A DNA stretch of 64,000 nucleotides. Source: Aromatoleum aromaticum EbN1 (lineage in GTDB: Bacteria; Pseudomonadota; Gammaproteobacteria; Burkholderiales; Rhodocyclaceae). The DNA lies in contig NC_006513.1 of NCBI RefSeq assembly GCF_000025965.1, forward strand, positions 3,410,001-3,474,000, given 5' to 3'. The translations under genes and the position numbers were made by a program. Position 1 is the stretch's first letter; every line of letters starts with the position of its first letter. A model generated the notes under the pieces. The model was not told the origin of the DNA. It worked only from the letters and a program-made list of their open reading frames with translations, and did not search any database. Positions 4,028 through 35,375 of the stretch are shown here, one piece after another.

Positions 4028-4036
4028 CGCCCGTAC

Positions 4037-6685: not shown

Positions 6686-6864
6686 TCGTCCGTCCTCTGG
6701 CTTGGCGGTCCCCGGCAACAGAACCCGATAAGATCGCCGCAGTGTATCAGCGATCAACCATTCCCCACGTCGCCAGATGATCCGGCGGTCGGCATCGACA
6801 TCGACATCATGATTACCGCAGGCGGAGGGCAATTGCGCTGCTGTATCAGTATATTGAGAGCATT

Positions 6865-10832: not shown

Positions 10833-10962
10833 GTCTTTCTCCTTGTCCGATTCTTCAATTGAAAACAGGCGCACTATTTACTGTAGAAGCGCCTCGTGCG
10901 GCCTCCCACCCTTGGCCATCGCTCGCAGCAAACGTCGGCCACGTGCGTTCCCACGTGGTCGA

Positions 10963-14629: not shown

Positions 14630-14777
14630 TCGCGCTTCGCCACGCCAGGGCAGACCCTGTGGATCCGCGCGGTGGACGGAGCGTCGTTCAACAGCGAAAA
14701 CCTCAGCCTGAAAATCAGGGGCCTGCCTGCCCGCGGCCAGGCAGGCCCTTGGACGACTGTCAAGCAGCCAGGCGAGA

Positions 14778-16130
14778 TCAGCGTGAAGCGTCGGCGGCGA
14801 CGGCATCTCCGGTGAAATATGTTTCTGGCTTTGGAGATATGGTTCTATAGTATTCGTCATTAACAAATACCGTGGCGGCATAGGTGGCAGCCTGAAGATT
14901 GAACACAATGCTAGGTTTCATCACCACTGCTGGAATGGACGGCACGAAGAAGGGAAACACTTGCGAAGCCCGCCATAACTTTCCTTCTGCATCATACCCA
15001 TCGACCATGCTGATAATCCACGTGTCCTCATCGAAATAATAACGGCGTTTGGGCACCGCATGACGTTTCCCCGAAACCACGGTGGCCTCGACCTCCCAGA
15101 CTCGGTGCAATTCCCATCGCACCTTATCCGGGTTTAGGTGAAATTTGCTAAAGATCTCATTTTCCTTGGCCGTGACCAGCTCATTATTGTTATACGGAAT
15201 GTACATCTCGCGCTTCCCTACGAGTTTCCACTCGTAGCGATTCGGCGACCCCATGAATCCCATGACTTCATCGAAATAGTTTGCGCCGGACGATACAAAA
15301 TCTGGCGTGTCATAAGCGACCGTAGGCGCTCGCCGCACACGGCGTTGACCAACCAGATATTGCCATGCTTGACGTGGGTTTTTGGGGTCAATACTGTCAC
15401 GAAAGACTAAAGACTCCCCAACTTTAAATTGCGGTGCGGTCGTGCTGAAACGATTTAAAAGATACTCTCCAGACCAATTTTCCAAAGTTCCATTTTTATA
15501 GAAATAAGGATGCTGATGGACATCTTCGCTCCTGGTAGCCATCGTCCTCGACCCATCCGCCGAACCTACCAAGTTCTTAAACACGAATTCAACAGATTCA
15601 CTCTCGACCCGCAACAAATGATTCCATACGACATCGACCCCCTCTTTCGGCACCGGAAATGGGATTCCCCCAAAACAACCTTCAACCGAATTCCCACCTT
15701 CGGTCGTCTTGCAGTTGGTTGCATTCTTGAAGGTATTTGCCGCCACGTGCTCCGGCACCGTCGCCGTGCGATGGGTTGGATAGACGTCGACACGGAACGT
15801 GTCCGGGTATTTCTTCAGCAGCGCCTGCGTGCCCTCGGAGAGCTTGTCCGCATGCTGGGCCATGTTGGACGCGGTGATTTGAAAGGCCGGCTTTTCATTC
15901 TGGAAAAGGTTCACCGGAATGTCGCCCACCTTCGGGCCCGCGACCGGGCCGGTGTGCCCCCCAGTCCACGCCGGGATGGTGCCCTCCTTGTTGCCGGCTT
16001 TTTCTCCGCCGAGCGGCGTCAGCGAGGTTTTCAGCTTGGCGGCTTCGTCTGCGCTCACTGCGGCCATCGTGCTCTGCATGCCTGCGCTCAGCGCCAGGAT
16101 AGAGACACACAGCAAGGTCTTTTTCAGCAT
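14778..16130 (-). CDS. DUF1329 envelope protein (LolA/B-like fold family)
   Basis: A 450-residue protein starting at ATG 16130 behind GGAGATCAAG. A signal peptide (MLKKTLLCVSILALSAGMQ) precedes the DUF1329 opening VSADEAAKLKTSLTPLGGEKAGN with the typical IPAWTGG motif. The C-terminal part has the conserved WELHRVWEVEATV and RRYYFDEDTW segments. The family is thought to bind hydrophobic ligands in the periplasm, and structural relation to lipoprotein carriers has been proposed. Second gene of the envelope operon, 28 bases behind DUF1302. In this island it could shuttle a hydrocarbon or a lipid between membranes (inference). Confidence 0.87.
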   Translation of the reverse strand: MLKKTLLCVSILALSAGMQSTMAAVSADEAAKLKTSLTPLGGEKAGNKEGTIPAWTGGHTGPVAGPKVGDIPVNLFQNEKPAFQITASNMAQHADKLSEGTQALLKKYPDTFRVDVYPTHRTATVPEHVAANTFKNATNCKTTEGGNSVEGCFGGIPFPVPKEGVDVVWNHLLRVESESVEFVFKNLVGSADGSRTMATRSEDVHQHPYFYKNGTLENWSGEYLLNRFSTTAPQFKVGESLVFRDSIDPKNPRQAWQYLVGQRRVRRAPTVAYDTPDFVSSGANYFDEVMGFMGSPNRYEWKLVGKREMYIPYNNNELVTAKENEIFSKFHLNPDKVRWELHRVWEVEATVVSGKRHAVPKRRYYFDEDTWIISMVDGYDAEGKLWRASQVFPFFVPSIPAVVMKPSIVFNLQAATYAATVFVNDEYYRTISPKPETYFTGDAVAADASR

Positions 16131-16158
16131 CTTGATCTCCTCGGTCGTTTTATAAGAA

Positions 16159-17844
16159 TCAGAACGTGCGCTGAAGCGTGAGCGACACGAAGTCGCGATC
16201 GCCGTGGAAATTGTCATAGGACAGCTCTCCTGCCGGATTGACGATCGAGCCCGAGGAACCGATGTAGTGGGTGTAATTCAAGCCGCCCTGCCAGGTCTTT
16301 CGGTAATCGGCCTTTACGCCAATGCTCAGGCTGCCGCCATTTTCAGACGGGAACAGAACGCCATTCACGGAGGAGCGCCCTGCCAGGCCATAACTGACCC
16401 CGATCGGCACCTGCAAATCAAGTCCGGGAGCGACCTGGAAATATTCCGGGGTAAAAACGAACTGGATTGCGCTCGCTTCACGCGTGGCATTCGGGTCGAG
16501 CACTGCCTTGTTGTCGGTGACGCTCAACACACGGTTGTAGGCAAACTCCCCCACGAAGGCTGCGCCCTCCCAAAGCGCATTGGCCGGCAGAACGGTGATC
16601 GCCGAAAGGCTCATATGCATCGTCTTGCCCTTCGGAAAGGTGGCGTTGTCGTCGTTGTCCGCCCCACCCAGCCCAAGGGTGACGTTGCCGGTGCCAACCA
16701 GCGGCTGATTTTCGCGGAAGGACAGTTCGCCGGAAACGTTCGTCTCCCCCAGCAGCGTGGCAAAGCTCGCCCCGACCGTGCGGATGTTTTCCGCAAAAAC
16801 CAGGACGTAATCGCCATCCACGCCGCTGGCCGGATCGGCGTTCACCCCAGGCCGGATGTAGAACTGCGGCAGCTTGTCGTGGAACTGGGCGGCGTACAGG
16901 CCGTACTCGGTGTCGCCGGCACGGAATTTGACTTGTACCCCCCCTTGGCCGGAGTCCTTGGCATCCAGATCATCGCCCCGACGTAGCGTCCCGTTCGGTC
17001 CGAACGGTCCGTACAGGAACTCGCCGCCGGCCCCGGGGAAATCCGCGAACGCAAAATAGCTGCCTGCGCCCGGCAGTCGCGAATCGCGCCATTCGTACTG
17101 GTAATAGGCGCCGACCGAGATGTCCGGGCTGATCTGCAGTTGCGCCGAAACCTGCCCGACCGGGCGGGCGACTTCCTTGAACTGCGAGTTCGGCACCGAC
17201 AGCGCACGGGCCAGATCGAGCGGGGTCTGTGCGCCCGCGATCCCGTTCGCACCGAAGAAAAGGGTTTCGCCGTAGAGCTGAGTGAAGCGCCCCGCCTTCA
17301 GGTTAAGGCCCTTGCCGGCAATGTCGGTTCGGCCATATACAAAGGCGTCAAGGAATTCCGCTTTCCGGCCGTGCAGCTTTTCAGTGGCCGTCGTGAACTC
17401 GTCGAAATCCGCGGAACGCTGGTTGAGGGACCCGGCGTGGCGTGGACTGCGGTCATTGGACTCGTTGTAAACCTGGTCGTACCAGGCTGCGCCGCTGACG
17501 CGGATGCCCATGTTGTTGCGGTAGCGCAAATCGAACTCGGAGAGCAGGTCAAACCGGTTCGAAATCAAGCCGCGGGCGAAATTACGGTCACCGTCATTGG
17601 TGTTGATCTGCGCGCCTGCATCCGAGGCCGGCCCGCTCGCGTCCTGCTGCTCGACGCGCCAGCTCGCATTGTATTTGACGGTATTGTCCCAACGCATCGA
17701 CAGATCAGGGTTGCCTGTATCGATGGTGATGCCGAAAACTGCCCCCGAAACCGCCATGCCTGTGCAAAGGGTGGCGACGGCCTTGCTGACTGACTTGATT
17801 CGTAGCGTGCAATTGTGGTTAAGACGGGGCTGCTTGTCGTTCAT
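16159..17844 (-). CDS. DUF1302 outer-membrane beta-barrel protein
   Basis: A 561-residue protein from ATG 17844, preceded by AAGGAGG at 11 bases. An N-terminal hydrophobic export segment (VATLCTGMAVSGAVFG) leads into ITIDTGNPDLSMRWDNTVKYN, the characteristic DUF1302 opening, and the chain ends in a barrel-type strand (DFVSLTLQRTF). DUF1302 proteins are predicted large porins that co-occur with DUF1329, YCF48-like and RND genes, exactly as here. It is the first gene of the four-gene operon on the minus strand. The likely role is outer-membrane passage of a hydrophobic compound; direction and substrate are unknown. Confidence 0.87.
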   Translation of the reverse strand: MNDKQPRLNHNCTLRIKSVSKAVATLCTGMAVSGAVFGITIDTGNPDLSMRWDNTVKYNASWRVEQQDASGPASDAGAQINTNDGDRNFARGLISNRFDLLSEFDLRYRNNMGIRVSGAAWYDQVYNESNDRSPRHAGSLNQRSADFDEFTTATEKLHGRKAEFLDAFVYGRTDIAGKGLNLKAGRFTQLYGETLFFGANGIAGAQTPLDLARALSVPNSQFKEVARPVGQVSAQLQISPDISVGAYYQYEWRDSRLPGAGSYFAFADFPGAGGEFLYGPFGPNGTLRRGDDLDAKDSGQGGVQVKFRAGDTEYGLYAAQFHDKLPQFYIRPGVNADPASGVDGDYVLVFAENIRTVGASFATLLGETNVSGELSFRENQPLVGTGNVTLGLGGADNDDNATFPKGKTMHMSLSAITVLPANALWEGAAFVGEFAYNRVLSVTDNKAVLDPNATREASAIQFVFTPEYFQVAPGLDLQVPIGVSYGLAGRSSVNGVLFPSENGGSLSIGVKADYRKTWQGGLNYTHYIGSSGSIVNPAGELSYDNFHGDRDFVSLTLQRTF

Positions 17845-18004
17845 GTCTTTGTCTTCCTCCTTGAGTAAATATAACTGCGTCTTTTTTTGCCTGTGGCCAG
17901 TCACGGCTGCAGGTTTGTTGCAGGAGCGTTTCGGATGGCCGGGTCAATGAACAGCAGCCATCCTCTTTAAATAATTTGGTGAATTGATCGAATGAACAAA
18001 GCTA

Positions 18005-18304: not shown

Positions 18305-18625
18305 CTAGCTCCTTTTCCTGCGCGACAACCTCCCCATCGACGACAAAGCCTTACCGATCCCCTCATGATCACCCCCTGGCAAGATTAGATTGGTCTGGCG
18401 CCACCGAATGGCATACGCCGGTCTTGTTCCCGAAAGACACACCTTCGTCGAGGGAAAATATAAGGCGGCGACCTCCGGATAAACATCGGACAAAGTGGAT
18501 TTTTTGTAGTCGAATTCCTTGCCACGCAATCGGAAAACGCCGATTGCACGGTAGGAATTGTCCGAGGTGAATTGACGAAAGTCGTCTGTATCAAATACGG
18601 AGAGGGGTGGCGCTCTGGCCGGCTT
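18305..18625 (-). other. Unrecognised open frame, probably a gene remnant
   Basis: On the minus strand a 106-codon frame is open from just after a TGA (18626-18628) to a TAG. The segment VFDTDDFRQFTSDNSYRAIG and then YPEVAALYFPSTKV reads like real protein rather than a shadow, but I recognise no family. The only ATG (18529) has no good ribosome-binding site. The region is squeezed between the transposase fragment and the intact IS, so it is probably decayed DNA. Confidence 0.3.
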
Positions 18626-18627: not shown

Positions 18628-18637
18628 AACAGCTACG
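18628..18637. repeat. Left target-site duplication of IS copy 1
   Basis: AACAGCTACG directly precedes the left inverted repeat and recurs at 19920-19929 directly after the right end. A perfect 10-base duplication is within the range for the ISAs1 family. Confidence 0.93.
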
Positions 18638-19919
18638 CAGGGCAATCGCACCTAAAATGCATAACCGATACAGGTAAACCGTTTACGATCATGCGCTTAG
18701 CGAGCCCCTGTTCACAACGTCATATTTTGTGTAGCTTACTGTCTTTTTGGGACGCCCATGAAGACAGGCCAGTTGATGCCCGTGAGCGAAGTGTTCGTGT
18801 CGGTACCCGACCCGCGCAGCAAGCGTCAGGCCCGGCACGATCTGTCCGAGTTGCTGACGGTGGCGGTGTGCGCGGTGCTGTGCGGGGCGAACGATTTCGT
18901 GGATGTGGCGCTGTGGGGCAAGTCCAACCTGGCCTGGCTGCGCAAGTTCCTGAAGCTCAAGGCGGGCGTGCCCTCGCATGACACGTTCTGCCGGGTGCTC
19001 GCGATGATCGATCCCGCGGCCTTCGAGGCGGCCTTTCTGCGCTGGGTGGGCGTGCTGGTGCCGGCGCTGGCGCCGGACAGCGTGGTGGCCATCGATGGCA
19101 AGACCAGTCGGCGCAGTGGCGGCAAGGATACGTCGGGGCCGTTGCACATGGTCAGCGCCTTTGCCGCCGGGATGGGTCTGGTGCTGGGGCAGCGCGCCAT
19201 CGATCAGAAGAGCAACGAGATCACGGCGATTCCCGAGTTGCTCGCCATGCTGGCGCTCGAAGGCACCATCGTCACGATCGATGCGATGGGCACCCAGGCA
19301 GCGATTGCCCGCACCATCCGTAGTCGTGGCGCAGACTACGTGTTGTGCGTCAAAGACAACCACCCCACGCTGACCGACTCGATTCTGCTCACCCTGGCCG
19401 GCGTGGCGGAAAAGATCGCGCCGGCTTCGCATTTCGAAGAACAAACCAAGGGCCACGGCCGCGTGGAGGTGCGCCGCTGCTGGGCCTATGATGCGGTCAG
19501 CCAGTTGTACAAGTCCGAGCAGTGGGCCGGGCTGCAATCGTTTGCGCTCGTCGAGCGCGAACGCACCGTCGACGGCAAGACCAGCGTCGAGCGCCATTAC
19601 TACATCAGTTCCCTGCCCGCAGATGCCGCCAGAATCGCGCAGGCCGTGCGCAGCCACTGGGCGGTCGAAAATCAGCTTCACTGGTCGCTCGATGTGCAGT
19701 TCAACGATGATCAGTCCCGTGTGCGCCGAGGCTATGCGGCCAACAACTTCGTGGTGCTGCGCCACATCGTACTGAACCTGCTGCGCCACAACACCACCCG
19801 CAAGGCCAGCATCAAGTCCAAGCGACTGCTCGCCTGCATGGAGGATGACTTTCGCGAAGAGTTACTTGGGTTGGCCATTTGAGCGCCTCGGGTTATGACA
19901 AGACGGTGCAATTGCCCTG
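18638..19919 (+). mobile_element. Complete ISAs1-family insertion sequence, copy 1 (1282 bp)
   Basis: The element is bounded by imperfect terminal inverted repeats: CAGGGCAATCGCACC on the left and, read inward from the right end, CAGGGCAATTGCACC. It holds a single transposase gene and is flanked by perfect 10-base target duplications (18628-18637 and 19920-19929). The identical element sits in opposite orientation at 27595-28876. The insertion lies between the decayed region and the promoter of the carboxylase operon and interrupts no recognisable gene. Confidence 0.95.
18758..19882 (+). CDS. ISAs1-family DDE transposase, copy 1
   Basis: A 374-residue transposase. The N-terminal associated domain (VSVPDPRSKRQARHDL, a family hallmark) is followed by the DDE catalytic core with the first Asp in VVAIDGKTSRRS, the second in VTIDAMGTQ and the Glu in HWAVENQLHWSLD. 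All three are present and the frame is intact, so the enzyme is probably active. The protein sequence is identical to that of copy 2, indicating recent transposition. Confidence 0.96.
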   Translation: MKTGQLMPVSEVFVSVPDPRSKRQARHDLSELLTVAVCAVLCGANDFVDVALWGKSNLAWLRKFLKLKAGVPSHDTFCRVLAMIDPAAFEAAFLRWVGVLVPALAPDSVVAIDGKTSRRSGGKDTSGPLHMVSAFAAGMGLVLGQRAIDQKSNEITAIPELLAMLALEGTIVTIDAMGTQAAIARTIRSRGADYVLCVKDNHPTLTDSILLTLAGVAEKIAPASHFEEQTKGHGRVEVRRCWAYDAVSQLYKSEQWAGLQSFALVERERTVDGKTSVERHYYISSLPADAARIAQAVRSHWAVENQLHWSLDVQFNDDQSRVRRGYAANNFVVLRHIVLNLLRHNTTRKASIKSKRLLACMEDDFREELLGLAI

Positions 19920-20025: not shown

Positions 20026-20080
20026 GATTACAAAAAATCAGGGTTTTCCGATTTTTTTCCATATTCCCCCTACGTATATT
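20026..20080 (+). promoter_or_regulatory. Promoter/operator of the biotin carboxylase-dikinase operon
   Basis: The block GATTACAAAAAATC (20026) followed by TTTTCCGATTTTTTT and a -10-like TATATT (20075-20080) recurs upstream of the ped-ebd operon (28995-29049) with identical 49-base spacing from GATTAC to TATATT. A T-rich, poor -35 (20053-20058) lies 16 bases before the -10. GATT-N6-AATC is a small inverted repeat conserved in both copies and a candidate activator site. The 190-base leader to the first gene is unusually long. Confidence 0.65.
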
Positions 20081-20224: not shown

Positions 20225-20269
20225 ACTGAATTTATCCCGGGCACCCCGGGCGCCAAATGAGGAATCCCG

Positions 20270-20758
20270 ATGGACATTGATCTCGAAGAACTGGCAGCGA
20301 TGGTGGAATTGCTGAAGGGGGCGGAGTTCTCCGAATTCCGTTATGAAAAAGGCGACATGCGGGTGACGATCAGCCGCGGTGGCGTGTCGGCGGGCGACGC
20401 TGCCGCACCGGTCTCCGTGCCGGCCACGCGGAGCGCTGCCTTGCCCGCTGCGCCATCCGTACAGCCGGCTGTCGTGTCACGCCCGGTGTCCGCGATGGCG
20501 ACCCCGGAAGGTGCGGAAGTGGTGACGGCACCCTTGCTCGGCTCCTTCTACGCCCGCCCCAAACCGGGAGAGGCGCCCTTCGTGAAGGTTGGCGACAGGG
20601 TCGAGGCCAAAACGATTCTCTGCATTGTCGAGGTCATGAAGCTGATGAACTCGGTGGAGGCGGGCGTGTGTGGCGTGATCGTGGCGATCCACGCGGATGA
20701 CGGGCAACTCGTCGAGTTCGGCCAGCCCCTGTTCAGCATCGCGCCGGGTGACGCCTGA
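20270..20758 (+). CDS. Biotin carboxyl carrier protein (AccB-like)
   Basis: A 162-residue protein with the AccB layout: an N-terminal helical segment (LEELAAMVELLKGAEFSEF), an Ala/Pro-rich linker (about 44-80) and a C-terminal biotinyl domain. The biotin attachment lysine is Lys124 in EVMKLMNSVEAG, with the conserved PLLGSFY strand before it. It would carry carboxybiotin between the biotin carboxylase and the carboxyltransferase encoded next. The stop codon overlaps the next start (TGATG), so translation is coupled. Its place with an OADA-type carboxyltransferase rather than AccA/AccD argues against a role in fatty acid synthesis. Confidence 0.93.
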   Translation: MDIDLEELAAMVELLKGAEFSEFRYEKGDMRVTISRGGVSAGDAAAPVSVPATRSAALPAAPSVQPAVVSRPVSAMATPEGAEVVTAPLLGSFYARPKPGEAPFVKVGDRVEAKTILCIVEVMKLMNSVEAGVCGVIVAIHADDGQLVEFGQPLFSIAPGDA

Positions 20759-22113
20759 TGGCCATGCAGCGGGTTTTTGTGGCCAATCGCGGTGAGATCG
20801 CGTTACGCATCATCGATGCGTGCGACCGGCTGGGCTTCGAGACCGTCCTGGGCGTTTCCGCGGCCGACCGCCTGTCCTTGCCCGCGCGTCGGGCTGGCCG
20901 CGTCGTGACGCTCGGGGGGCCGCGCGCGACCGAAAGCTATCTCAACGTGCCGGCCGTCATCCAGGCCGCCATCTCCACCGGCTGCACAGCGGTGCACCCG
21001 GGCTACGGCTTTCTCTCCGAGCGTGCCGACTTCGCGCGTCTATGCGCCGCGAACGGATTGACCTTCATCGGTCCGCGCCCGGAGCAGCTCGAGGCGCTGG
21101 GCGACAAGATCAGTGCCCGTCGGCTGGCCGAGTCGGTCGGCGTGCCGGTGTCGCCGGGCGGGCCGACGCGCACCGCCGCGGATGCCCTGTTGCTGGCGCG
21201 CAAGATCGGCTTCCCGTTGCTCGTCAAGGCAGCGTTCGGCGGTGGCGGGCGCGGCATGAAGCAGGTTCATGACGAGGCCGGCCTGGCGGCGGCGTGGGAG
21301 CTGGCCTCGTCGGAAGCCTCGGCATCGTTCGGCGACGGTACGGTATTCATCGAACGCTTTGTACAGGCGGCCAAGCACGTCGAGGTGCAGATCCTCGGCG
21401 ATGCGCACGGCCACCGCATCCACCTGGCCGAACGCGAATGCTCGCTGCAGTTCCGCTACCAGAAAATTCTGGAGGAGGCGCCGTGCGTTGCGTTGTCGGA
21501 CGAGGCGCGTCAGCGCCTGCATGACTACGCCTTGCGTATCGCCGACGCGCTCGACTACGTCAGCCTCGGGACGGTGGAGTTCTTGGTCGACGTCGAGCGC
21601 GGCGACATCTGTTTCCTGGAGGTGAATCCGCGCGTCCAGGTCGAGCACCCGGTGACCGAAGCCGTCACCGGTGTGGATCTCGTGCGCGAGCAGCTGCTGG
21701 TTGCCTTCGGCGAACCCCTGCGATTGCGCCAGGAGGACATCCGTGTCGACGGCCACGCGGTCGAGGTGCGCCTGACCGCACAGGATCCGGCGCAGGGGTT
21801 GCGGCCTTCGCCCGGCCGGCTGACGCACTGGCGGCCGAGCCCGGTCGGCGGCGTGCGCTGGGACACGCACATGTACGAGGACTATCTGTTTCCCCCTTAC
21901 TACGACGCGCTGATGGCCAAGGTCATCGCCCATGGGCCCGACCGGCAGGCCGCGCTGGCGCGGGCGCGGACGGCACTCGCCGGGCTGGATGTGCGTGGCT
22001 TGACGACGACACAGCCGCTGCTGCGGGAGATGCTCGATACCCCCGAGATCATTCACGACACCGTGACCACACGCTGGCTCGAGGATCGTTTCGCGAAGGA
22101 GGTTCGGTCATGA
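20758..22113 (+). CDS. Biotin carboxylase subunit (AccC-like)
   Basis: A 451-residue ATP-grasp enzyme that carboxylates biotin using bicarbonate and ATP. Visible motifs are the N-terminal VANRGEIALRII, the glycine-rich lid VKAAFGGGGRGMK, ERECSLQFRYQKILEEAPC and EVNPRVQVEHPVTEAVTGVDLV, all matching AccC. Length equals the family norm (about 450). It overlaps the preceding gene by one base and the next one as ATGA, in a tightly coupled six-gene operon. Predicted to form a complex with the carrier protein and the carboxyltransferase. Confidence 0.94.
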   Translation: MAMQRVFVANRGEIALRIIDACDRLGFETVLGVSAADRLSLPARRAGRVVTLGGPRATESYLNVPAVIQAAISTGCTAVHPGYGFLSERADFARLCAANGLTFIGPRPEQLEALGDKISARRLAESVGVPVSPGGPTRTAADALLLARKIGFPLLVKAAFGGGGRGMKQVHDEAGLAAAWELASSEASASFGDGTVFIERFVQAAKHVEVQILGDAHGHRIHLAERECSLQFRYQKILEEAPCVALSDEARQRLHDYALRIADALDYVSLGTVEFLVDVERGDICFLEVNPRVQVEHPVTEAVTGVDLVREQLLVAFGEPLRLRQEDIRVDGHAVEVRLTAQDPAQGLRPSPGRLTHWRPSPVGGVRWDTHMYEDYLFPPYYDALMAKVIAHGPDRQAALARARTALAGLDVRGLTTTQPLLREMLDTPEIIHDTVTTRWLEDRFAKEVRS

Positions 22114-23594
22114 CCGATGTTCATCTCGTCGACGTGTCCCTGCGCGACGGCAACCAGAGTCTTTGGGGGGCGGTCGGCGTCAAGACGCGCACCATCGAAC
22201 GCGTCTGCCCGGCAATCGACCGGGTCGGCTATCGCGCGCTCGAGCTTTTGTCGAGCACGCAGGTTGCCGTCGCCGTGCGTTTCCATCGCGAGGATCCGTG
22301 GGCCCGGATCGACGCCGCCAGCCGTGCCGCGCCGCGGACGCCGCTGGGCTTCCTGACCACCGGCAAGCGCTTCATCAGCTTTTCGCGCACACCGGCCAAC
22401 CTGTTCCAGCTGGCGTTCGACCTGCTGCGCCGGCACGGCGTGACGCGGATGTGGATCATCGACCCGATGCACGACATGGCGTCGGCCAGGGAAACGGCGC
22501 GCATGGCCAGGCGTGCCGGCTTCGACGAGGTGGTCGCTGGCATCTGTTACACGATCAGTCCGGTTCACACCGACGACTACTTCGCCGACCGGGTTGCCGA
22601 ACTCGACGATTGCGAAGCCATCGACTCGGTTTACCTCAAGGATCCGGCCGGCCTGCTGACCCCCGCGCGGCTGGAATCCCTCGTCCCGCATATGCGTCAG
22701 CGCCTCAAGCGCCTGCGCATCGATGAACTGCATACGCACTGCAACACCGGTCTGGCGCCGATCACGCTGCTGACCGCGGCAGACCTCGGCATCGGCACGC
22801 TGCATTGCGCGCTGCCCCCCCTGGCCAACGGGTCGTCGCATGCCCCGGCGGCGCAACTGGTCGCGAACCTGCGTGCCCGCGGTCATCGCGTGGACGTGGA
22901 TCTCGACGCGATGGAGGAGGCGTCCGCGATCCTGCGCCGTGAGGCGATGCTGCGGCGCCTGCCCTCGGGAGTGGTGCAGGCCTACGACGAGTCCTACTAC
23001 CGCCATACCCTGCCCGGCGGCGTGATTTCGACCACCCGCCGCCAGCTGGCCGAAATGGGACGCGCCGATCTGATGCCTGCGGTGATCGAGGAAACCGTGC
23101 AGGTGCGCAGCGATCTCGGCTGGCCGATCGTCATGACACCGTTCGCCCAGTACATCGTCACGCAGGCCGCGCTCAACGTGATGGCCGGCGAACGGTACAA
23201 GCAGGTCAGCGACGAGGTGGTCGACATGCTGATGGGCGACTGGGGACCGATGCCCGGGCCGGTTAGCAGCGCGTTGCTGGAGCGGGCGCACGACTCGCCA
23301 CGCGCGCGCAACCGGCATCAGGAGGCCGGGGCGCCGTCGCTGGACGAACTGCGCTCGCGCTTCGGTCGGGGTATTTCGGACGAGGACCTGCTGTTGCGCG
23401 CGCTGATGCCGGCCGAGCAGGTGGGTGCGATGGTGGACGAGCGCGAACGCGCCGGCATGGGCACGCGGGACCGCTCGCTGAAGGCCCTTGCGCAGGCGTT
23501 GGGCGACCGCAAGCGCCCGTTGTCGGTCAGCGTCTCCCATGGCGACACCCTGTTTTCACTACGCGGCAGCAGGCATACCGGGGAGGCGTCATGA
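22110..23594 (+). CDS. Carboxyltransferase of the pyruvate carboxylase/oxaloacetate decarboxylase (HMGL-like) family
   Basis: A 494-residue TIM-barrel carboxyltransferase. Family landmarks are DVSLRDGNQSLWG (metal-binding Asp plus substrate-side Arg/Gln), the barrel motif VYLKDPAGLL carrying the lysine that is carbamylated in homologues, and the metal-binding pair in HTHCNTG. Relatives transfer CO2 between biotin and CoA-free keto compounds such as pyruvate, unlike AccAD/PccB enzymes that use acyl-CoA. A ketone enolate as acceptor fits the pathway here (inference). A good ribosome-binding site (AAGGAGG) precedes the ATG, which overlaps the preceding stop. In canonical members the Asp-containing motif reads RDAHQS; RDGNQS here is a notable variant. 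Confidence 0.88.
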   Translation: MTDVHLVDVSLRDGNQSLWGAVGVKTRTIERVCPAIDRVGYRALELLSSTQVAVAVRFHREDPWARIDAASRAAPRTPLGFLTTGKRFISFSRTPANLFQLAFDLLRRHGVTRMWIIDPMHDMASARETARMARRAGFDEVVAGICYTISPVHTDDYFADRVAELDDCEAIDSVYLKDPAGLLTPARLESLVPHMRQRLKRLRIDELHTHCNTGLAPITLLTAADLGIGTLHCALPPLANGSSHAPAAQLVANLRARGHRVDVDLDAMEEASAILRREAMLRRLPSGVVQAYDESYYRHTLPGGVISTTRRQLAEMGRADLMPAVIEETVQVRSDLGWPIVMTPFAQYIVTQAALNVMAGERYKQVSDEVVDMLMGDWGPMPGPVSSALLERAHDSPRARNRHQEAGAPSLDELRSRFGRGISDEDLLLRALMPAEQVGAMVDERERAGMGTRDRSLKALAQALGDRKRPLSVSVSHGDTLFSLRGSRHTGEAS

Positions 23595-24493
23595 CGGATG
23601 TCCGCCCTGCCATGACCCGGCCGGACGCGGTGCGGGCCGCCGTACGGGCACGCGGCTGGGTGCTCGACGTCGATGGCTGTCTGGTACGTACCGCCACGGC
23701 GGGCGGTACGGGAGGAGTGCCGATCCCGGGGGCCGTCGAGCTGCTGCGCTGGCTGCGCCGCTCCGAACGGGATTTCATCGTGTGCACCAATGCGTCGCAA
23801 CGTCCGGTGCAGGACTACGCGAAGCATCTGCGGGCCATCGGTCTCGATGTGGCCGATGGCGAGATGATGACCGCCGCCACCGCGGCCGCCGACCATATCG
23901 CGATACACCATCGGGGCCTGTCAGTGCTTGTCGTCGGCGACCGCGGCCTCGAAGCGGCATTGCTCGAACGGCAGATCGAACTCGCGCAACCGGGTGGTGC
24001 TCCTGCCGGCGTGGTGGTGGTCGGAGCGGCCGATGTGTATGCGTCGTCGGTGCTCAACGCCGCATGCCTGGCCATCGCCGACCACGGCGCGGCGTTCTAC
24101 GTCACCGTCGATACGCCCTGGTTTCATGGCGGCATCGGTCGGTCGATTGCGTCCTCGTCGGCGATCGCCGCTGCCATTGCCGCCGTTACCGGGCGCAAGG
24201 CCGAGGTCTGCGGCAAGCCCTCACCGGCCATCGGCGAGGTTCTGCAGTCGCGGCTCGGCGGTGACGGGAGTCGCATCGTCGTCGTCGGCGACATGGCATC
24301 GATCGAAATAAGGCTCGCCCACCAGATGGGGGCGCTGGGTGTCCTCGTCATGAGCGGCGGTACCTCCGCCGCCGAAATTCCGGGCCTTGAACCCACGCAC
24401 CGGCCGCACCTGCAGGTGGCCGACGTCGGTGCGCTCGTCGAACTGATAAAGACCATTGAGCCTCAAGGAGACAACAATGACCAAAGCACGTGA
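23591..24493 (+). CDS. HAD-superfamily phosphatase, NagD-like (class IIA)
   Basis: A 300-residue protein with the HAD nucleophile motif WVLDVDGCL (Asp nucleophile plus general-acid Asp), motif II in VCTNAS, the cap domain typical of NagD-like members, motif III Lys in VCGKPSPAI and motif IV VGDMASIEIRLA. In the last motif the usual second acidic Asp is replaced by Glu. It starts within the carboxyltransferase stop (ATGA) and overlaps the next gene by 17 bases. A phosphatase embedded between a carboxylase and an ATP-dependent dikinase may hydrolyse a phosphorylated ketone or enol intermediate or side product; the true substrate is unknown. Confidence 0.83.
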   Translation: MTDVRPAMTRPDAVRAAVRARGWVLDVDGCLVRTATAGGTGGVPIPGAVELLRWLRRSERDFIVCTNASQRPVQDYAKHLRAIGLDVADGEMMTAATAAADHIAIHHRGLSVLVVGDRGLEAALLERQIELAQPGGAPAGVVVVGAADVYASSVLNAACLAIADHGAAFYVTVDTPWFHGGIGRSIASSSAIAAAIAAVTGRKAEVCGKPSPAIGEVLQSRLGGDGSRIVVVGDMASIEIRLAHQMGALGVLVMSGGTSAAEIPGLEPTHRPHLQVADVGALVELIKTIEPQGDNNDQST

Positions 24494-26300
24494 CCGGTTT
24501 TCATTCTTCCACGAGGCGCAGGTGCCCGCAGGCGCAGAAGGCTGGCAGCGCATGTACCCGTACTTCCTCGTTTCGCAACCCGAAGGGCAACCGGCGGAAG
24601 ACTCGCGCTTCTGGTTTGCGGATTCGATGCACTGGTCGCGCGCAGTCCATCCCTTCGACAGCATCGGTGCCGAGGCGGTGTACTACGGTGCGGGCGTCAA
24701 CAGCGCACGCAGCATCGCCTTGCCCTCGGCGCTGGGCCTGGACGTGCGCATGGTCAACGGCTACGTATATATCTGCCCGCTGCCGGTGACCGATCCGGCC
24801 GAGATCGAGCGGCGCCTTGTCCTGTTCCAGGAGCGCGCGGGGTTCTACTACAAGAACTGGGATGACCTGTACGCGCGCTGGCAGGAGAAGATGCTCGTGG
24901 CGGTCCGGCGGATGAAGGCGCTGAAGTTCGAGCCGCTGCCGGAGTTCGAGCCGCTGGAGGTGGTTACTGAAGGCCGTGGTTGCTCGGTATCCTGGGATCT
25001 GGTGGAAAACTACCACCGCCTGATCAACGACTTCTTCCTTGTCTGGCAGTACCACTTCGAGATGCTGGGCCTGGGCTACGGCGCCTATCTCGTGTTCTTC
25101 GGCCTTTGCAAACAGGCGTTCCCGGAGATCGAGGACCAGACCATCGCACGCATGGTGGCGGGCGTCGAAGGCATTGCCTTTCGGCCTGATGACGAGTTGC
25201 GCCGGCTCGCCAAGCTGGCGGTGGAACTTGGTCTGGGCGAGGTGCTGGACAGCAGGGACAGCCCGGACGAGATCTTTGCCGCATTGAAGCGCCGAACCGG
25301 CGGTGAGCGCTGGATCGCGGAGTTCGAAGCCGCGCGGGATCCCTGGTTCGACTACTTCGCCGAATACGGCTTCATGCATGACCAGGAAACGTGGAATGGC
25401 AACCTGGTGATCCCGCTGCAGGGCATCGCCCGCTATGTCGGCCTGCTGCAAGCAGGGGAGGAGATCGACCGTCCGGTGGCCCGGCTGCAGGCCGAGCAGG
25501 ATGAGATTGCCGGCGAATACCGTGCCCTGCTGACACCCGCGGAAGCCACGAAGTTCGACGAGGCGCTGGGTCTGTCACGCGCCGTCTTCCCGTTCATCGA
25601 GGAGCACAACATCTACGTCGAACACTGGTCGCATGCCGTGTTCTGGGAGAAGGTGCGCGAGCTTGGCCAGGTGTTTGTCAAGGCCGGTTTCTTCAAGGAA
25701 ACGAACGACCTTTACTATCTGAACCGCTTCGAGCTCGATCAGGCACTGTTCGACCTGGTGGAGTCCTGGGCGATCGGCGTGCCGGCACGGGGTGTGCAGC
25801 ACTGGCACGCCGAGATCGCCGAGCGTCGCAAGATCATGACGGCCCTGCGTTCCGCCTCGCCTGCGCCGGCATACGGCATCCCGCCCAAGGAAGTGACCGA
25901 CCCGTTCGCCATCATGAACTACGGCGTGACGACCGAGCGCGTGGCCGACTGGCTCGATCAGACGGCGGGTTCCAACAACGATGGGCAACTCAAGGGCATC
26001 CCCGTGTCGCCGGGCGTGGTCGAAGGCCTGGTCCGCGTGATCCGCCACGAGGACGAACTCAGCCAGCTGTTACCGGGCGAGATCCTCGTGGCGCAGATTA
26101 CCGCTCCGTCATGGGCGTCGGCGTTCTCGGTCGTTTCGGGTGTCGTGACCGACATCGGCGGGATGATGAGTCATGCGGCGATCATCTGTCGCGAATACGC
26201 CATGCCGGCGGTGGTCAGCACCGGGTTTGCCACGACGCGCCTGAAGACCGGTCAGCGGGTGCGCATCGATGGCCGCAAGGGCACCGTCACTCCGTTGTGA
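24477..26300 (+). CDS. Phenylphosphate-synthase-like dikinase, phosphohistidine (PpsA-type) subunit
   Basis: A 607-residue protein from the ATG at 24477, behind AGGAGACAACA. The first 500 residues have no standard PEP-synthase domain and probably bind the substrate, as in phenylphosphate synthase subunit 1. The C-terminal 110 residues are the swivelling PEP-utilising domain with catalytic His566 in GGMMSHAAIICREY; the Thauera aromatica subunit has its active histidine at nearly the same place (His569). The TIM barrel of true PEP synthase is absent. With the ATP-grasp subunit encoded next, it would transfer the beta-phosphate of ATP through phosphohistidine to an oxygen of the substrate. Here an enol or ketone is the probable acceptor (inference). 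No CBS-domain third subunit follows. Confidence 0.85.
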   Translation: MTKARDRFSFFHEAQVPAGAEGWQRMYPYFLVSQPEGQPAEDSRFWFADSMHWSRAVHPFDSIGAEAVYYGAGVNSARSIALPSALGLDVRMVNGYVYICPLPVTDPAEIERRLVLFQERAGFYYKNWDDLYARWQEKMLVAVRRMKALKFEPLPEFEPLEVVTEGRGCSVSWDLVENYHRLINDFFLVWQYHFEMLGLGYGAYLVFFGLCKQAFPEIEDQTIARMVAGVEGIAFRPDDELRRLAKLAVELGLGEVLDSRDSPDEIFAALKRRTGGERWIAEFEAARDPWFDYFAEYGFMHDQETWNGNLVIPLQGIARYVGLLQAGEEIDRPVARLQAEQDEIAGEYRALLTPAEATKFDEALGLSRAVFPFIEEHNIYVEHWSHAVFWEKVRELGQVFVKAGFFKETNDLYYLNRFELDQALFDLVESWAIGVPARGVQHWHAEIAERRKIMTALRSASPAPAYGIPPKEVTDPFAIMNYGVTTERVADWLDQTAGSNNDGQLKGIPVSPGVVEGLVRVIRHEDELSQLLPGEILVAQITAPSWASAFSVVSGVVTDIGGMMSHAAIICREYAMPAVVSTGFATTRLKTGQRVRIDGRKGTVTPL

Positions 26301-26316
26301 GAATGAGGAACCTATT

Positions 26317-27363
26317 ATGTTGACGTTCAATTTCGACGATCCGCTGTCGGCAGATTTGAAACTGGTCGGCGGCAAGGCGCATGGCCTGGCCATGATGACG
26401 CAGGCGGGCATTCCGGTATCGCCCGGATTTACCGTCTCGACCACGGCTTACCGTGACTATCTGGCGACCATCGGCTTGCGGCAGCGCCTGGAATCGGTGC
26501 TCGGCGCGGTCGACCGCGTCTCGATCGATGCCCTCGACGATGTCGCGCGAACCGTCCACGGCTGGTTCGTCGACATGCCGCTGCCTGCCGGGTCGCATGC
26601 GGCGGTAGCCGTGGCATACGAGCGCCTGTGCGCATCGCTCGGGTTTCCGGAGGTATCGGTCGCGGTGCGCTCGAGCGCCACGGCGGAGGACTCGGCGGGC
26701 GCGAGCTTCGCGGGCGAATACGAAACCTTCGTCGGCATGCGCGGCTTGGCGCAGGTCGAGTTGCATATCCGCCTCTGCTGGGCGAGCGCGTTTACGGCGC
26801 GCGCGCTAAGTTACGCGTGGAAGAACGGGATCGATCCGCTCGACGTCGACATGGCCGTCGTCGTGCAGAAGACCGTGAACGCACGCGCCGCGGGCGTGAT
26901 GTTCACGGTGAGTCCGCTTACCGGCGACCGTTCGCGTATCCACATCGAGGCGTCGTACGGGCTGGGGCTGGGGGTTGTCGGCGGTGAAGTGACGCCCGAC
27001 CGCTATGTCGTGGCGAAGATCGAGGGTCATGTGGTCGACCGGGTGCTCGGTGACAAGCACCTCGAATACATCGGTGGTCAGGTGGCGACACCGGTTGATG
27101 TCGAGCGCCGCGGCAAACTGTGTCTGGATGACGAGGAGGTCATGGCGTTGGCGCGGCTGGGCAAGCGGCTGGAGCGCCTGAACGGCGCGCCGCAAGACAT
27201 CGAGTTTGCCGTCGACCGCGAGTTGCCGCCCGGCCAAAACATCGTACTGTTGCAGTGCCGTCCGGTGACAGTCCTGCCGGGCAGGGGCGAGGCCAATCCG
27301 GTTTCGGCCGATGCACTCTCGCGCATGGCCGCGTCGGTGCTGGCAGCGGCGAAGCCGCATTGA
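26317..27363 (+). CDS. Phenylphosphate-synthase-like dikinase, ATP-binding (PpsB-type) subunit
   Basis: A 348-residue protein equal to the isolated PPDK/PEP-synthase N-terminal ATP-grasp domain. The start is the ATG at 26317 after GAGGAA. Motifs include [57 protein letters not shown] and the C-terminal QDIEFAVDR with LLQCRPVTVL. It would bind ATP and phosphorylate His566 of the partner subunit, releasing AMP and phosphate. The pair resembles phenylphosphate synthase, and more distantly rifampin phosphotransferase, in which the same parts are fused. Last gene of the operon; a strong hairpin follows at once. Confidence 0.87.
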   Translation: MLTFNFDDPLSADLKLVGGKAHGLAMMTQAGIPVSPGFTVSTTAYRDYLATIGLRQRLESVLGAVDRVSIDALDDVARTVHGWFVDMPLPAGSHAAVAVAYERLCASLGFPEVSVAVRSSATAEDSAGASFAGEYETFVGMRGLAQVELHIRLCWASAFTARALSYAWKNGIDPLDVDMAVVVQKTVNARAAGVMFTVSPLTGDRSRIHIEASYGLGLGVVGGEVTPDRYVVAKIEGHVVDRVLGDKHLEYIGGQVATPVDVERRGKLCLDDEEVMALARLGKRLERLNGAPQDIEFAVDRELPPGQNIVLLQCRPVTVLPGRGEANPVSADALSRMAASVLAAAKPH

Positions 27364-27403
27364 ACCTCGACAGAAAGCCGGAGGTCCGGCTTCTGTCGAG
27401 GTT
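27363..27403 (+). terminator. Long hairpin ending the carboxylase-dikinase operon
   Basis: AACCTCGACAGAA with GCCGG pairs with CCGGC and TTCTGTCGAGGTT to give a stem of about 18 base pairs with one bulged A, starting at the stop codon. No long T-run follows, but a second GC hairpin (CGGCCCCGCGGGGCCG) does. It probably ends transcription or protects the 3' end of the message. Confidence 0.7.
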
Positions 27404-27463
27404 CGGCCCCGCGGGGCCGTGTCCCGGCCATCGCTTCGTTATTGACGAATTGACAGGCCACAT

Positions 27464-27500
27464 CGTGCATCGAAACGTGCAATCCCCGTTTCGATGCACG
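27464..27500. repeat. Perfect 14-bp inverted repeat
   Basis: CGTGCATCGAAACG (27464-27477) is repeated as its exact reverse complement at 27487-27500 around a nine-base loop. It lies 60 bases past the operon terminator in a stretch without a gene. TTGACGAA occurs just to its left and again to its right. A role as binding site or as second terminator is possible. Confidence 0.6.
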
Positions 27501-27594: not shown

Positions 27595-28876
27595 CAGGGC
27601 AATTGCACCGTCTTGTCATAACCCGAGGCGCTCAAATGGCCAACCCAAGTAACTCTTCGCGAAAGTCATCCTCCATGCAGGCGAGCAGTCGCTTGGACTT
27701 GATGCTGGCCTTGCGGGTGGTGTTGTGGCGCAGCAGGTTCAGTACGATGTGGCGCAGCACCACGAAGTTGTTGGCCGCATAGCCTCGGCGCACACGGGAC
27801 TGATCATCGTTGAACTGCACATCGAGCGACCAGTGAAGCTGATTTTCGACCGCCCAGTGGCTGCGCACGGCCTGCGCGATTCTGGCGGCATCTGCGGGCA
27901 GGGAACTGATGTAGTAATGGCGCTCGACGCTGGTCTTGCCGTCGACGGTGCGTTCGCGCTCGACGAGCGCAAACGATTGCAGCCCGGCCCACTGCTCGGA
28001 CTTGTACAACTGGCTGACCGCATCATAGGCCCAGCAGCGGCGCACCTCCACGCGGCCGTGGCCCTTGGTTTGTTCTTCGAAATGCGAAGCCGGCGCGATC
28101 TTTTCCGCCACGCCGGCCAGGGTGAGCAGAATCGAGTCGGTCAGCGTGGGGTGGTTGTCTTTGACGCACAACACGTAGTCTGCGCCACGACTACGGATGG
28201 TGCGGGCAATCGCTGCCTGGGTGCCCATCGCATCGATCGTGACGATGGTGCCTTCGAGCGCCAGCATGGCGAGCAACTCGGGAATCGCCGTGATCTCGTT
28301 GCTCTTCTGATCGATGGCGCGCTGCCCCAGCACCAGACCCATCCCGGCGGCAAAGGCGCTGACCATGTGCAACGGCCCCGACGTATCCTTGCCGCCACTG
28401 CGCCGACTGGTCTTGCCATCGATGGCCACCACGCTGTCCGGCGCCAGCGCCGGCACCAGCACGCCCACCCAGCGCAGAAAGGCCGCCTCGAAGGCCGCGG
28501 GATCGATCATCGCGAGCACCCGGCAGAACGTGTCATGCGAGGGCACGCCCGCCTTGAGCTTCAGGAACTTGCGCAGCCAGGCCAGGTTGGACTTGCCCCA
28601 CAGCGCCACATCCACGAAATCGTTCGCCCCGCACAGCACCGCGCACACCGCCACCGTCAGCAACTCGGACAGATCGTGCCGGGCCTGACGCTTGCTGCGC
28701 GGGTCGGGTACCGACACGAACACTTCGCTCACGGGCATCAACTGGCCTGTCTTCATGGGCGTCCCAAAAAGACAGTAAGCTACACAAAATATGACGTTGT
28801 GAACAGGGGCTCGCTAAGCGCATGATCGTAAACGGTTTACCTGTATCGGTTATGCATTTTAGGTGCGATTGCCCTG
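27595..28876 (-). mobile_element. Complete ISAs1-family insertion sequence, copy 2 (1282 bp, inverted)
   Basis: Same length, same terminal inverted repeats and same encoded protein as copy 1, but inverted. It has a different perfect 10-base target duplication (CCGTCCCGGG at 27585-27594 and 28877-28886), so it arrived by an independent insertion. It lies between the terminator of the carboxylase operon and the promoter of the ped-ebd operon and disrupts neither. Confidence 0.95.
27632..28756 (-). CDS. ISAs1-family DDE transposase, copy 2
   Basis: A 374-residue transposase identical in sequence to copy 1, with intact catalytic Asp, Asp and Glu motifs (AIDGKTSRRS, TIDAMGTQ, VENQLHW). Transcribed opposite to the catabolic operons on either side. 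Confidence 0.96.
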   Translation of the reverse strand: MKTGQLMPVSEVFVSVPDPRSKRQARHDLSELLTVAVCAVLCGANDFVDVALWGKSNLAWLRKFLKLKAGVPSHDTFCRVLAMIDPAAFEAAFLRWVGVLVPALAPDSVVAIDGKTSRRSGGKDTSGPLHMVSAFAAGMGLVLGQRAIDQKSNEITAIPELLAMLALEGTIVTIDAMGTQAAIARTIRSRGADYVLCVKDNHPTLTDSILLTLAGVAEKIAPASHFEEQTKGHGRVEVRRCWAYDAVSQLYKSEQWAGLQSFALVERERTVDGKTSVERHYYISSLPADAARIAQAVRSHWAVENQLHWSLDVQFNDDQSRVRRGYAANNFVVLRHIVLNLLRHNTTRKASIKSKRLLACMEDDFREELLGLAI

Positions 28877-28886
28877 CCGTCCCGGG
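28877..28886. repeat. Right target-site duplication of IS copy 2
   Basis: CCGTCCCGGG, identical to 27585-27594. Confidence 0.93.
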
Positions 28887-28994: not shown

Positions 28995-29049
28995 GATTAC
29001 AAACAATCCTCCTTTTCCGATTTTTTTCGATATTGACTGATCGTATATT
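28995..29049 (+). promoter_or_regulatory. Promoter/operator of the ped-ebd operon
   Basis: GATTACAAACAATC, then TTTTCCGATTTTTTT and TATATT (29044-29049), with the same internal spacing as the element at 20026-20080. The -35 (29022-29027) is only a T-run, so an activator is probably needed. The remaining stretch to the gene at 29180 is an untranslated leader of about 125 bases in which I see no gene. Confidence 0.65.
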
Positions 29050-29179: not shown

Positions 29180-29929
29180 ATGGCAAAACGACTTGAAGGA
29201 AAGGTTGCAATCGTTACCGGTGCGGCGGCAGGCATTGGCAGAACTTTTTGCGTGGGACTGGCGGGCGAGGGCGCCCGCGTGGTGGCGGCTGATTTGCGCG
29301 ACGTCACGGAAACCCTGGCGGAAATCAAGGCCCTCGATGGAACCGCGATGGGCGTTCAGATGGATGTTGCCAATCCGGAGGACGTGGCACGCATGGTCAA
29401 GCAGGTGACGGATATTTATGGCCGGGTGGATATTCTGGTCAACAACGCCGGCATCTATCCAACCAGTCCGATCGAGCAGATTTCCCTGGAAGACTGGCGC
29501 CGGGTGACGGCCATCAATCTGGACGGGCCGTTTCTCTGCTCCAAGGCCGTCGTCCCGATCATGAAACTGCAGCGGCATGGCCGGATCATCAACATGACAT
29601 CCACCACTTTCTTCATGGGCGTGCCTAATTTCACCCACTACGTGGCAAGCAAGGGCGGCGTCATCGGTCTGGCGCGCGGCCTAGCCGGCGAGGTCGGCGA
29701 ATTCGGCATCACCGTCAATTGCATTGCTCCGGGACTGACGAATACCCCCGGTGTTAGCGGTTCTCCCGACATATTGCAGACGTGGGACATGCTGGTCGAG
29801 GCCCAGGCGGTCAAGCGTAGGCAGGAGCCCCTGGATCTGCTCGGGCCATTGCTGTTCCTCGCGTCGGATGAGTCGGCCTTTGTCACGGGTCAGACCCTGT
29901 GCGTCGACGGCGGCTGGACGCGGCATTAA
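29180..29929 (+). CDS. ped: SDR alcohol dehydrogenase, (S)-1-phenylethanol dehydrogenase-like
   Basis: A 249-residue classical short-chain dehydrogenase from the ATG at 29180 (AAAGGGGGAATC before it). It has the NAD-binding TGAAAGIG, VNNAGIYP, and catalytic Ser141, Tyr154 and Lys158 in NMTSTTFF and YVASKGG. The wording INMTSTT, THYVASK and DLLGPLLFLASDESAFVTGQTL closely recalls Ped of Aromatoleum aromaticum EbN1, with the catalytic residues at what I recall as the same numbers. It would oxidise the secondary alcohol made by the Mo enzyme to a ketone with NAD. In EbN1 the gene follows ebdD; here it leads the operon. Confidence 0.88.
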   Translation: MAKRLEGKVAIVTGAAAGIGRTFCVGLAGEGARVVAADLRDVTETLAEIKALDGTAMGVQMDVANPEDVARMVKQVTDIYGRVDILVNNAGIYPTSPIEQISLEDWRRVTAINLDGPFLCSKAVVPIMKLQRHGRIINMTSTTFFMGVPNFTHYVASKGGVIGLARGLAGEVGEFGITVNCIAPGLTNTPGVSGSPDILQTWDMLVEAQAVKRRQEPLDLLGPLLFLASDESAFVTGQTLCVDGGWTRH

Positions 29930-29961
29930 CCACCTAATATACGAATCGGAAGGCGGTGCAT

Positions 29962-33987: not shown

Positions 33988-34004
33988 TGACATCGGAGAC
34001 GCAA

Positions 34005-35318: not shown

Positions 35319-35375
35319 GCGGGGCGGTACCCGGTCGTACGCCGGAGCCGGTTTGAAGGTTCGATGAGGAGGGAT

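Follow-up and report, generated by a model that had tools for sequence, protein, structure and literature searches.

Two six-gene sets for the carboxylation of hydroxylated aryl ketones have been described, hpeHICBAD of Rhodococcus rhodochrous GD02 and acvABCDEF of Sphingobium sp. SYK-6 (PMC9618137). In this system the dikinase HpeHI phosphorylates 4-hydroxyacetophenone or acetovanillone, the substrates that the enzyme favors, at the ring hydroxyl (PMC9618137), and it has been characterized, with T/SxxGGxxxH as its catalytic motif (PMC12167813). The carboxylase HpeCBA accepts the phosphorylated ketone as its sole form, and the phosphatase acts after carboxylation (PMC9618137 and PMC12167813). 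Here we describe an operon of this kind in Aromatoleum aromaticum EbN1, a nitrate-respiring soil bacterium and model for the anaerobic degradation of alkylbenzenes that nevertheless bears a second island of ethylbenzene-dehydrogenase-type (ebd) genes. The operon occupies positions 20270-27363 of a 64,000-nucleotide stretch of contig NC_006513.1 (positions 3,410,001 to 3,474,000), called the window below; bare positions refer to it.

EbN1 itself carries three systems that resemble parts of this island. Its ethylbenzene pathway (EbdABCD1, Ped1, ApcABCDE, Bal) shares with the island an Ebd-type dehydrogenase, a short-chain dehydrogenase/reductase (SDR), ketone carboxylation, coenzyme A (CoA) ligation and a related two-component system; unlike the window carboxylase, Apc is hydantoinase-type and biotin-independent. 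The p-hydroxyacetophenone carboxylase XccABC/HacABC (C1:196-200 kb, in the p-ethylphenol locus) has a biotin carboxyl carrier protein (BCCP), biotin carboxylase (BC), carboxyltransferase (CT) and HAD protein homologous to the window set, with 37-50% identity in the carboxylase subunits and 33% in the HAD protein, and window genes have close paralogs in its neighbors AcsA1, TioL1 and the efflux block. There, however, the side chain is oxidized by a flavocytochrome, not by Ebd. Finally, phenylphosphate synthase PpsAB(C) is a two-subunit dikinase of the same family as the window kinase (44% and 37% identity), in a separate clade. No phenylphosphate carboxylase appears among the annotated neighbors of the window operon, although no separate search for ppc genes was made.

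The window operon is an Hpe/Acv-type set

Pfam and NCBIfam profile searches assign the six open reading frames (ORFs), which form one tight, nearly overlapping block on the + strand (Table 1), to a BCCP, a BC, a CT, a NagD-like HAD phosphatase and the two parts of a dikinase, all in one operon. The biotin, HAD and swivel-domain motifs are unbroken, and dN/dS of the six genes against A. toluclasticum is 0.09-0.22. By these measures the operon is genuine, unbroken and subject to purifying selection. A reading made earlier from the sequence alone (the sequence-only reading) had described six tightly coupled genes adjoining ebd-type genes, and both the ORFs and profile matches bear this out. KinA2 carries the T/SxxGGxxxH histidine motif as TDIGGMMSH. 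The operon is thus an Hpe/Acv-type set, a combination on record since 2022, and not an undescribed enzyme type; what is new is its pathway context, the linkage to a second ebd cluster, ebd2.

We consider, with a probability of about 0.75, that the product of the operon is a ketone carboxylase of the Hpe/Acv type, biotin-dependent and assisted by phosphate, which serves a second alkyl-arene pathway in which Ebd2 is the first enzyme. This starts from the observed gene set, motifs, linkage, shared promoter element and paralogy; ring phosphorylation and carboxylation of the phosphorylated ketone are carried over from published homologs, and the substrate is inferred. Like the Hpe/Acv systems, the locus has the six gene kinds in one operon, the kinase motif and a nearby CoA ligase for the beta-keto acid. 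It differs from them in that the kinase genes lie downstream, not upstream, in its coupling to a thiolase and a molybdenum enzyme that hydroxylates alkyl-arenes, in its anaerobic host, and in forming its own clade among the relatives fetched (the GD02 and SYK-6 proteins were outside the trees). In the open-licence literature we found no report pairing an Hpe/Acv-type set with an ethylbenzene-dehydrogenase-type enzyme, and no substrate assigned to the second ebd island of EbN1. If the proposal is true, oxygen-free side-chain hydroxylation is coupled to phosphate-assisted biotin carboxylation, and Hpe chemistry, known in aerobic lignin degraders, extends to an anaerobic alkyl-arene degrader.

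The sequence-only reading had the dikinase activate the ketone, perhaps as an enol phosphate. In that scheme Ebd2 and Ped2 would deliver a non-phenolic ketone, acetophenone or propiophenone, whose enol phosphate the biotin carboxylase would carboxylate. Phosphoenolpyruvate (PEP) synthase, a relative of the dikinase, makes an enol phosphate, and A. toluclasticum, which has no ApcD ortholog (see below), would need a carboxylase other than Apc for its ebd2 route. Apc itself has been proposed to use phosphoenol-acetophenone (PMC5214803). An enol phosphate from the window dikinase is nonetheless unlikely, because the homologous dikinase phosphorylates a ring hydroxyl and the homologous carboxylase takes the ring-phosphorylated ketone only. 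The domain content of KinA2 also argues against it: PF00391 alone was found, without a PEP-binding barrel, whereas a PEP-synthase-like control gene at 54496-57693 has one (PF02896). Moreover, EbN1 already possesses Apc, EbdA2 has gained polar residues near catalytic residues in sequence, and a dedicated phosphatase would be needed for a phosphate that outlasts carboxylation, which a ring phosphate would do. Enol-phosphate activation is therefore probably wrong, and we give this scheme a very low probability; lower still, by a little, is that of its extension, in which such carboxylation of non-phenolic aryl ketones would be a third anaerobic ketone-carboxylation chemistry, standing in for Apc where ebd2 occurs without apc, as in A. 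toluclasticum. By analogy with its published homologs, the window carboxylase would accept the ring-phosphorylated ketone and refuse the free one, as HpeCBA does.

The operon is linked to ebd2 in two species

In A. toluclasticum MF63, the closest relative (locus L023), ped2-ebdABCD2-tioL2 and then the operon follow one another contiguously, with no match to the window transposase. The same contig carries acsA2 (78%), Reg2 (80%), the histidine kinase (58%), the efflux block and the zinc-type dehydrogenase. A close KinA2 (89%) occurs only in EbN1 and A. toluclasticum among 17 genomes of the genus, 16 of which have a PpsA-type relative (~45%). EbdA has a single close counterpart in the A. toluclasticum genome (91%), the only other relative standing at 37%; for ApcD the best match is 28%, and no ortholog was found. 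Since this species has neither ebd1 nor an ApcD ortholog, the operon is the only visible candidate for ketone carboxylation there.

The operon and ped2-ebd2 also share a promoter element. A pattern drawn from the region upstream of the operon in the two species had one other match in the window, before ped2, with 3 mismatches (0.01 expected). The fuller element GAYTACARANAATCNNNNTTTTCCGATTTTT, derived from the sites upstream of the operon and of ped2 in the two species (four in all), occurs at up to 3 mismatches at three sites in EbN1, all in the window, and at two in A. toluclasticum. It was found neither in 5 other genomes nor in 100 shuffles of the window, and a reversed-pattern control gave no site in 7 genomes. 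Because four of the five sites match by construction, the independent results are the third EbN1 site, which points at the efflux/acsA2 block with a transposase remnant intervening, and the absence elsewhere. TATATT stands at equal spacing 3' of all three EbN1 sites and of the A. toluclasticum operon site (counted by eye); the A. toluclasticum ped2 site has a poorer match. A sigma-70 consensus scan of 18500-30000 found no site where 2.0 were expected; the shared element came from the comparison. An obvious candidate for the element-binding protein is the LuxR-type response regulator (4037-4672). Together, the linkage in a second species and the shared element back the earlier claim of a dikinase, biotin carboxylase and phosphatase acting on a ketone after an ebd-type dehydrogenase.

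Two identical insertion sequences (IS) of 1,283 bases, inverted relative to each other, flank the operon, and the EbN1 genome holds 7 full identical copies of their transposase gene. An older related transposase remnant (74% identical) lies at ~18005-18275, separating the DUF1302 gene from the third promoter element. The operon might accordingly be seen as the cargo of a composite transposon, or as a remnant in decay, unconnected with an ebd2 pathway. A composite transposon was ruled out, as an exact 9-bp target duplication of its own borders either IS and the outer flanks are unlike, so that these are two independent insertions into a pre-existing island. All six genes are open, at the dN/dS given above, and the arrangement is present in A. 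toluclasticum without the IS. Cargo or decay is largely refuted, and of the explanations considered here we hold it to be the least probable.

The island is distinct from other loci of EbN1

The EbN1 genome searched comprised a chromosome of 4,296,230 bases and two further contigs. The 17 published EbN1 primers that were tested all have exact matches across the window and three other stretches: 13 fall in the p-ethylphenol locus, 2 in ebdA1 (1.39 Mb) and 2 in ppsA1 (1.87 Mb). The window thus derives from EbN1 or a closely similar strain. These positions make the window island distinct from the three published loci, and they place XccABC/HacABC at ~C1:188-211 kb, which rules out that the operon is that published carboxylase. 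Instead, the operon belongs to a third island, centered on an uncharacterized ebd paralog, and lies in neither the p-ethylphenol locus nor the apc-linked ebd1 locus. Two close ebdA genes are present in the genome, 77% identical to each other; the ethylbenzene dehydrogenase of known structure (PDB 2ivf) corresponds to ebdA1, not to ebdA2. Approximately 20 kb from ebdA1, C1:1414892-1416571 aligns over all 560 residues with the delta subunit of acetophenone carboxylase (PDB 5l9w; 1317 bits). Hydantoinase-type carboxylases had been called absent, which holds for the window but not for the genome: all three genomic PF02538 matches lie outside the window, and an Apc-type carboxylase at the window locus is thereby ruled out. 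Among plasmid sequences, ebd had no match at 1e-150, and CT matched 17 records, with none above 46% among the 15 matches listed.

One of the 13 p-ethylphenol-locus primers, ebA335_F, also matches the window. It fits both efflux copies (the reverse primer was not tested), so earlier transcript measurements of that gene may combine signals from both.

The p-ethylphenol locus has a carboxylase and a HAD phosphatase (C1:195475-196356), and a search of C1 178-218 kb gave no match to either kinase subunit, yet the related HpeCBA carboxylase requires a phosphorylated ketone. This raises the question of where the p-hydroxyacetophenone pathway of EbN1 obtains its kinase, if one is required. Full-length relatives of the swivel subunit number two in the genome, in the window operon and the phenol locus (the genome-wide search was made with the swivel subunit). 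XccBCA is stated to cluster with hpeHI homologs (PMC9618137); in the EbN1 genome this fits the window operon alone. The operon could then serve p-hydroxyacetophenone, or give its kinase in trans to the p-ethylphenol locus, with the proximity of ebd2 incidental, and the substrate preference of the Hpe enzyme would suit this. However, the window encodes a complete second carboxylase and phosphatase, the promoter element is common to ped2-ebd2 and absent from the p-ethylphenol locus, and the operon-ebd2 linkage is kept in A. toluclasticum. We regard such a role as unlikely, though less so than enol-phosphate chemistry.

Relatives place the operon in a clade of its own

A scan of species genomes gave 325 CT relatives, and the best 80 of these 325 loci were kept. 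A swivel subunit is present in 45 of the 80, a HAD phosphatase in 69 and EbdA in one. Where at least 8 kb was available on both sides (41 loci), 26 have a swivel subunit and 15 lack it, and one of the latter (L050) has the ATP subunit. The gene caller performed poorly on very GC-rich relatives, and neighbors may have been missed. The window CT groups with loci L023-L030 in a clade of nine (SH-aLRT 100; a quick tree, not bootstrapped, with a long-branch warning on L096, outside the clade). The order BCCP-BC-CT-HAD-KinA-KinB is common to the eight fetched members as far as their contigs extend (L027 begins inside BCCP and L028 stops inside KinA), whereas the swivel subunit is upstream in 33 of the 37 other loci that carry one. 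The swivel-subunit tree gives an equal grouping, with a KinA2 clade of 10 rows, one of them a duplicate (support 100). A placement of KinA2 inside the PpsA clade was rejected, as its clade stands outside the 11 PpsA rows (100). The KinA2 clade joins the Aromatoleum PpsA clade with support 98, which fits a phenolic substrate, since characterized members of the kinase family act on phenolic hydroxyls. Because it joins PpsA and not the upstream-type kinases, the trees suggest that its kinase and carboxylase were not inherited as a single unit from upstream-type systems.

Among the 15 long loci that lack a swivel subunit, seven (L042, L047, L054, L055, L059, L091, L093) have a carboxylase and HAD phosphatase with no kinase match within ~8-10 kb.

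An ethyl-substituted phenol is the probable substrate

EbdA2 behaves in profile searches as an ethylbenzene dehydrogenase, scoring above the EbdA equivalog cut-off (Table 1), with the catalytic residues H192, D223 and K450 aligned. It differs from EbdA1 by three hydrophobic-to-polar changes near these residues in sequence: both EbdA2-type proteins have N200, N217 and S226 (T226 in A. toluclasticum), whereas all four EbdA1-type proteins have W200, I217 and M226. The regulator Reg2 belongs to the phenol-sensor family, whose His and Trp are said to anchor the hydroxyl group (PMC10715001). Both residues are retained in Reg2, by alignment, and in its A. toluclasticum ortholog, by eye. Cysteines of the zinc site are missing from Reg2. 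From the EbdA2 residues, the Reg2 pocket and the clade neighbors described below, all of them indirect, we infer that the substrate is probably an ethyl-substituted phenol. The term 'ebdA2' in PMC10715001 is not a mention of the gene; it belongs to primer names.

Which phenol is a finer question. In EbN1, p-ethylphenol is already served by the EmhCF route, whose chemistry requires a para hydroxyl, and for this reason m-ethylphenol would be favored as the substrate; the flavocytochrome route is not known to handle meta-alkylphenols. Two clade members add a hint. In Nocardioides L028 a neighboring hydroxylase of the 3-(3-hydroxyphenyl)propionate type scores above its NCBIfam cut-off, and in Nonomuraea L030 a neighbor is a 3-hydroxyanthranilate dioxygenase; each points to a hydroxyl in the meta position relative to the side chain. 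Such neighbors occur at 2 of the 8 clade loci, and homologs of either at none of the other 72. Ring-position annotation covered part of the neighbors in the clade and those of L039; the remaining outside loci were scanned for homologs of these two proteins only. Apart from L028 and L030, the neighbor annotation of L024-L030 is mostly uninformative on ring position. For the meta position we estimate a chance of roughly one in two. If it is correct, the pathway might account for meta-alkylphenol breakdown.

In the L030 cluster of Nonomuraea, the carboxylase set is joined to genes for 3-hydroxyanthranilate meta-cleavage. There, 2-amino-3-hydroxyacetophenone, a kynurenine-related ketone, would fit as the substrate.

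In the pathway that we propose for the window island, Ebd2 would hydroxylate the side chain of the ethyl-substituted phenol and Ped2 would oxidize the resulting alcohol to a hydroxyacetophenone. KinA2 and KinB2 would then phosphorylate the ring hydroxyl by way of a phospho-histidine in KinA2, BCCP2, BC2 and CT2 would carboxylate the acetyl methyl group, and HAD2 would take the phosphate off. AcsA2 and TioL2 would activate and thiolyze the beta-keto acid to hydroxybenzoyl-CoA and acetyl-CoA.

Several observations weigh against this proposal. The ebd linkage is narrow, confined to two Aromatoleum species, because EbdA lies within the locus in only one of the 80 fetched relatives. KinA2 does not group with the carboxylase-linked kinases sited upstream of their carboxylase, in trees that exclude the GD02 and SYK-6 proteins. 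The three polar changes in EbdA2 were selected from 162 positions at which EbdA1 is consistently distinct from both EbdA2 proteins, and some nearby changes are not polar gains (e.g., A478F). A sigma-54 promoter scan found 6 window sites against 6.36 expected, none above chance for Reg2 and none of use as a promoter of the operon. Beside the A. toluclasticum operon stands a second V4R-type regulator (L023:16713-18515) without the phenol-anchoring His and Trp, which therefore probably senses something else. As to the meta position, the hint comes from two neighbors chosen post hoc in actinobacteria that have no ebd, and HpeHI is slow on 3-hydroxyacetophenone, at 0.038 U/mg versus 0.69 U/mg on 4-hydroxyacetophenone, or ~18 times slower (PMC12167813).

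Features of the island and its neighbors

The coordinates of the operon, the ebd2 cluster and the surrounding genes are collected in Table 1.

Table 1. Genes, promoter elements and insertion sequences of the ebd2 island (window positions)
Feature	Position	Strand	Evidence or remark
Biotin carboxyl carrier protein (BCCP2)	20270..20758	+	TIGR00531 126.7 bits vs cut-off 115.2; VEVMKLMN biotin site
Biotin carboxylase (BC2)	20758..22113	+	Biotin_carb_N, CPSase_L_D2, Biotin_carb_C; 50% identity to p-ethylphenol-locus BC
Carboxyltransferase (CT2), PYC_OADA type	22110..23594	+	Domain match; 46% to p-ethylphenol-locus CT; clade of 9, SH-aLRT 100
HAD-IIA phosphatase (HAD2), HpeD-like	23591..24493	+	Hydrolase_6/Hydrolase_like; LDVDGC motif
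Dikinase swivel and substrate-binding subunit (KinA2; HpeH/PpsA type)	24477..26300 (ORF from 24456; likely start 24477)	+	NCBIfam PRK08296.1-5 1036 bits vs 578; TDIGGMMSH
Dikinase ATP-binding subunit (KinB2; HpeI/PpsB type)	26317..27363 (ORF from 26269; likely start 26317)	+	PPDK_N 302.9 bits
Ped2, SDR alcohol dehydrogenase	29180..29929	+	Domain match; 47% to Ped1 of ebd1 locus
EbdA2, molybdenum hydroxylase alpha subunit	29956..32898	+	EthbenzDh_ebdA 2265 bits vs cut-off 2000; 77% to EbdA1
EbdB2, iron-sulfur subunit	32929..33987	+	Family/sequence match
EbdC2, heme subunit (EB_dh)	33936..34649	+	Real start probably further in
EbdD2, chaperone	34659..35318	+	Nitrate_red_del
TioL2, thiolase	35364..36563	+	83% to p-ethylphenol-locus thiolase
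AcsA2, acetoacetate-CoA-ligase-like beta-keto acid CoA ligase	7803..9797	-	TIGR01217 816 bits; 78% to AcsA1
Zinc-type alcohol dehydrogenase	9837..10874	-	Directly 3' of operon in A. toluclasticum
Reg2, sigma-54-type V4R regulator, phenol-sensor family	4973..6943	-	54% to PheR, 44% to EtpR; phenol-pocket His and Trp retained
Two-component system: histidine kinase 2531-4027, LuxR-type response regulator 4037-4672	2531..4672	-	Family/sequence match
Efflux block: MMPL/RND protein, Ycf48-like, DUF1329, DUF1302	11082..17904	-	76-97% identity per protein to p-ethylphenol efflux cluster
Promoter element before operon	20026..20056	+	TATATT at 20075-20080
Promoter element before ped2-ebd2	28995..29025	+	TATATT at 29044-29049
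Third element copy, before efflux/acsA2 block	18481..18511	-	2 mismatches; TATATT at 18457-18462
IS copy 1	18637..19919	+	Own exact 9-bp target duplication AACAGCTAC
IS copy 2, inverted	27595..28877	-	Own exact 9-bp target duplication CGTCCCGGG

The PEP-synthase-like protein used as a control (54496-57693) has 1065 aa, with PPDK_N from residue 294 on; its long N-terminal part had no Pfam match at the threshold used.

Among 297 genomes of the family, with two candidates scored per genome, EbdA of at least 76% identity occurs in four: EbN1, G017, G100 and G116. The last three proteins are nearer EbdA1 (80-87%). ApcD lies near EbdA in G100 (96%) and G116 (87%), and near it in G017 there are hydantoinase-type relatives of 24-33% only.

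In Rhodocyclaceae AWTP1-18 (L039), extension of the upstream sequence showed neither ebd nor a flavocytochrome; four + strand cell-shape genes are annotated there, and a fifth gene encodes a LysR regulator. Directly 5' of the kinase-carboxylase set in this genome is a Ped2-like SDR (49%), and DUF1329, Ycf48-like and MMPL genes are present as in the window.

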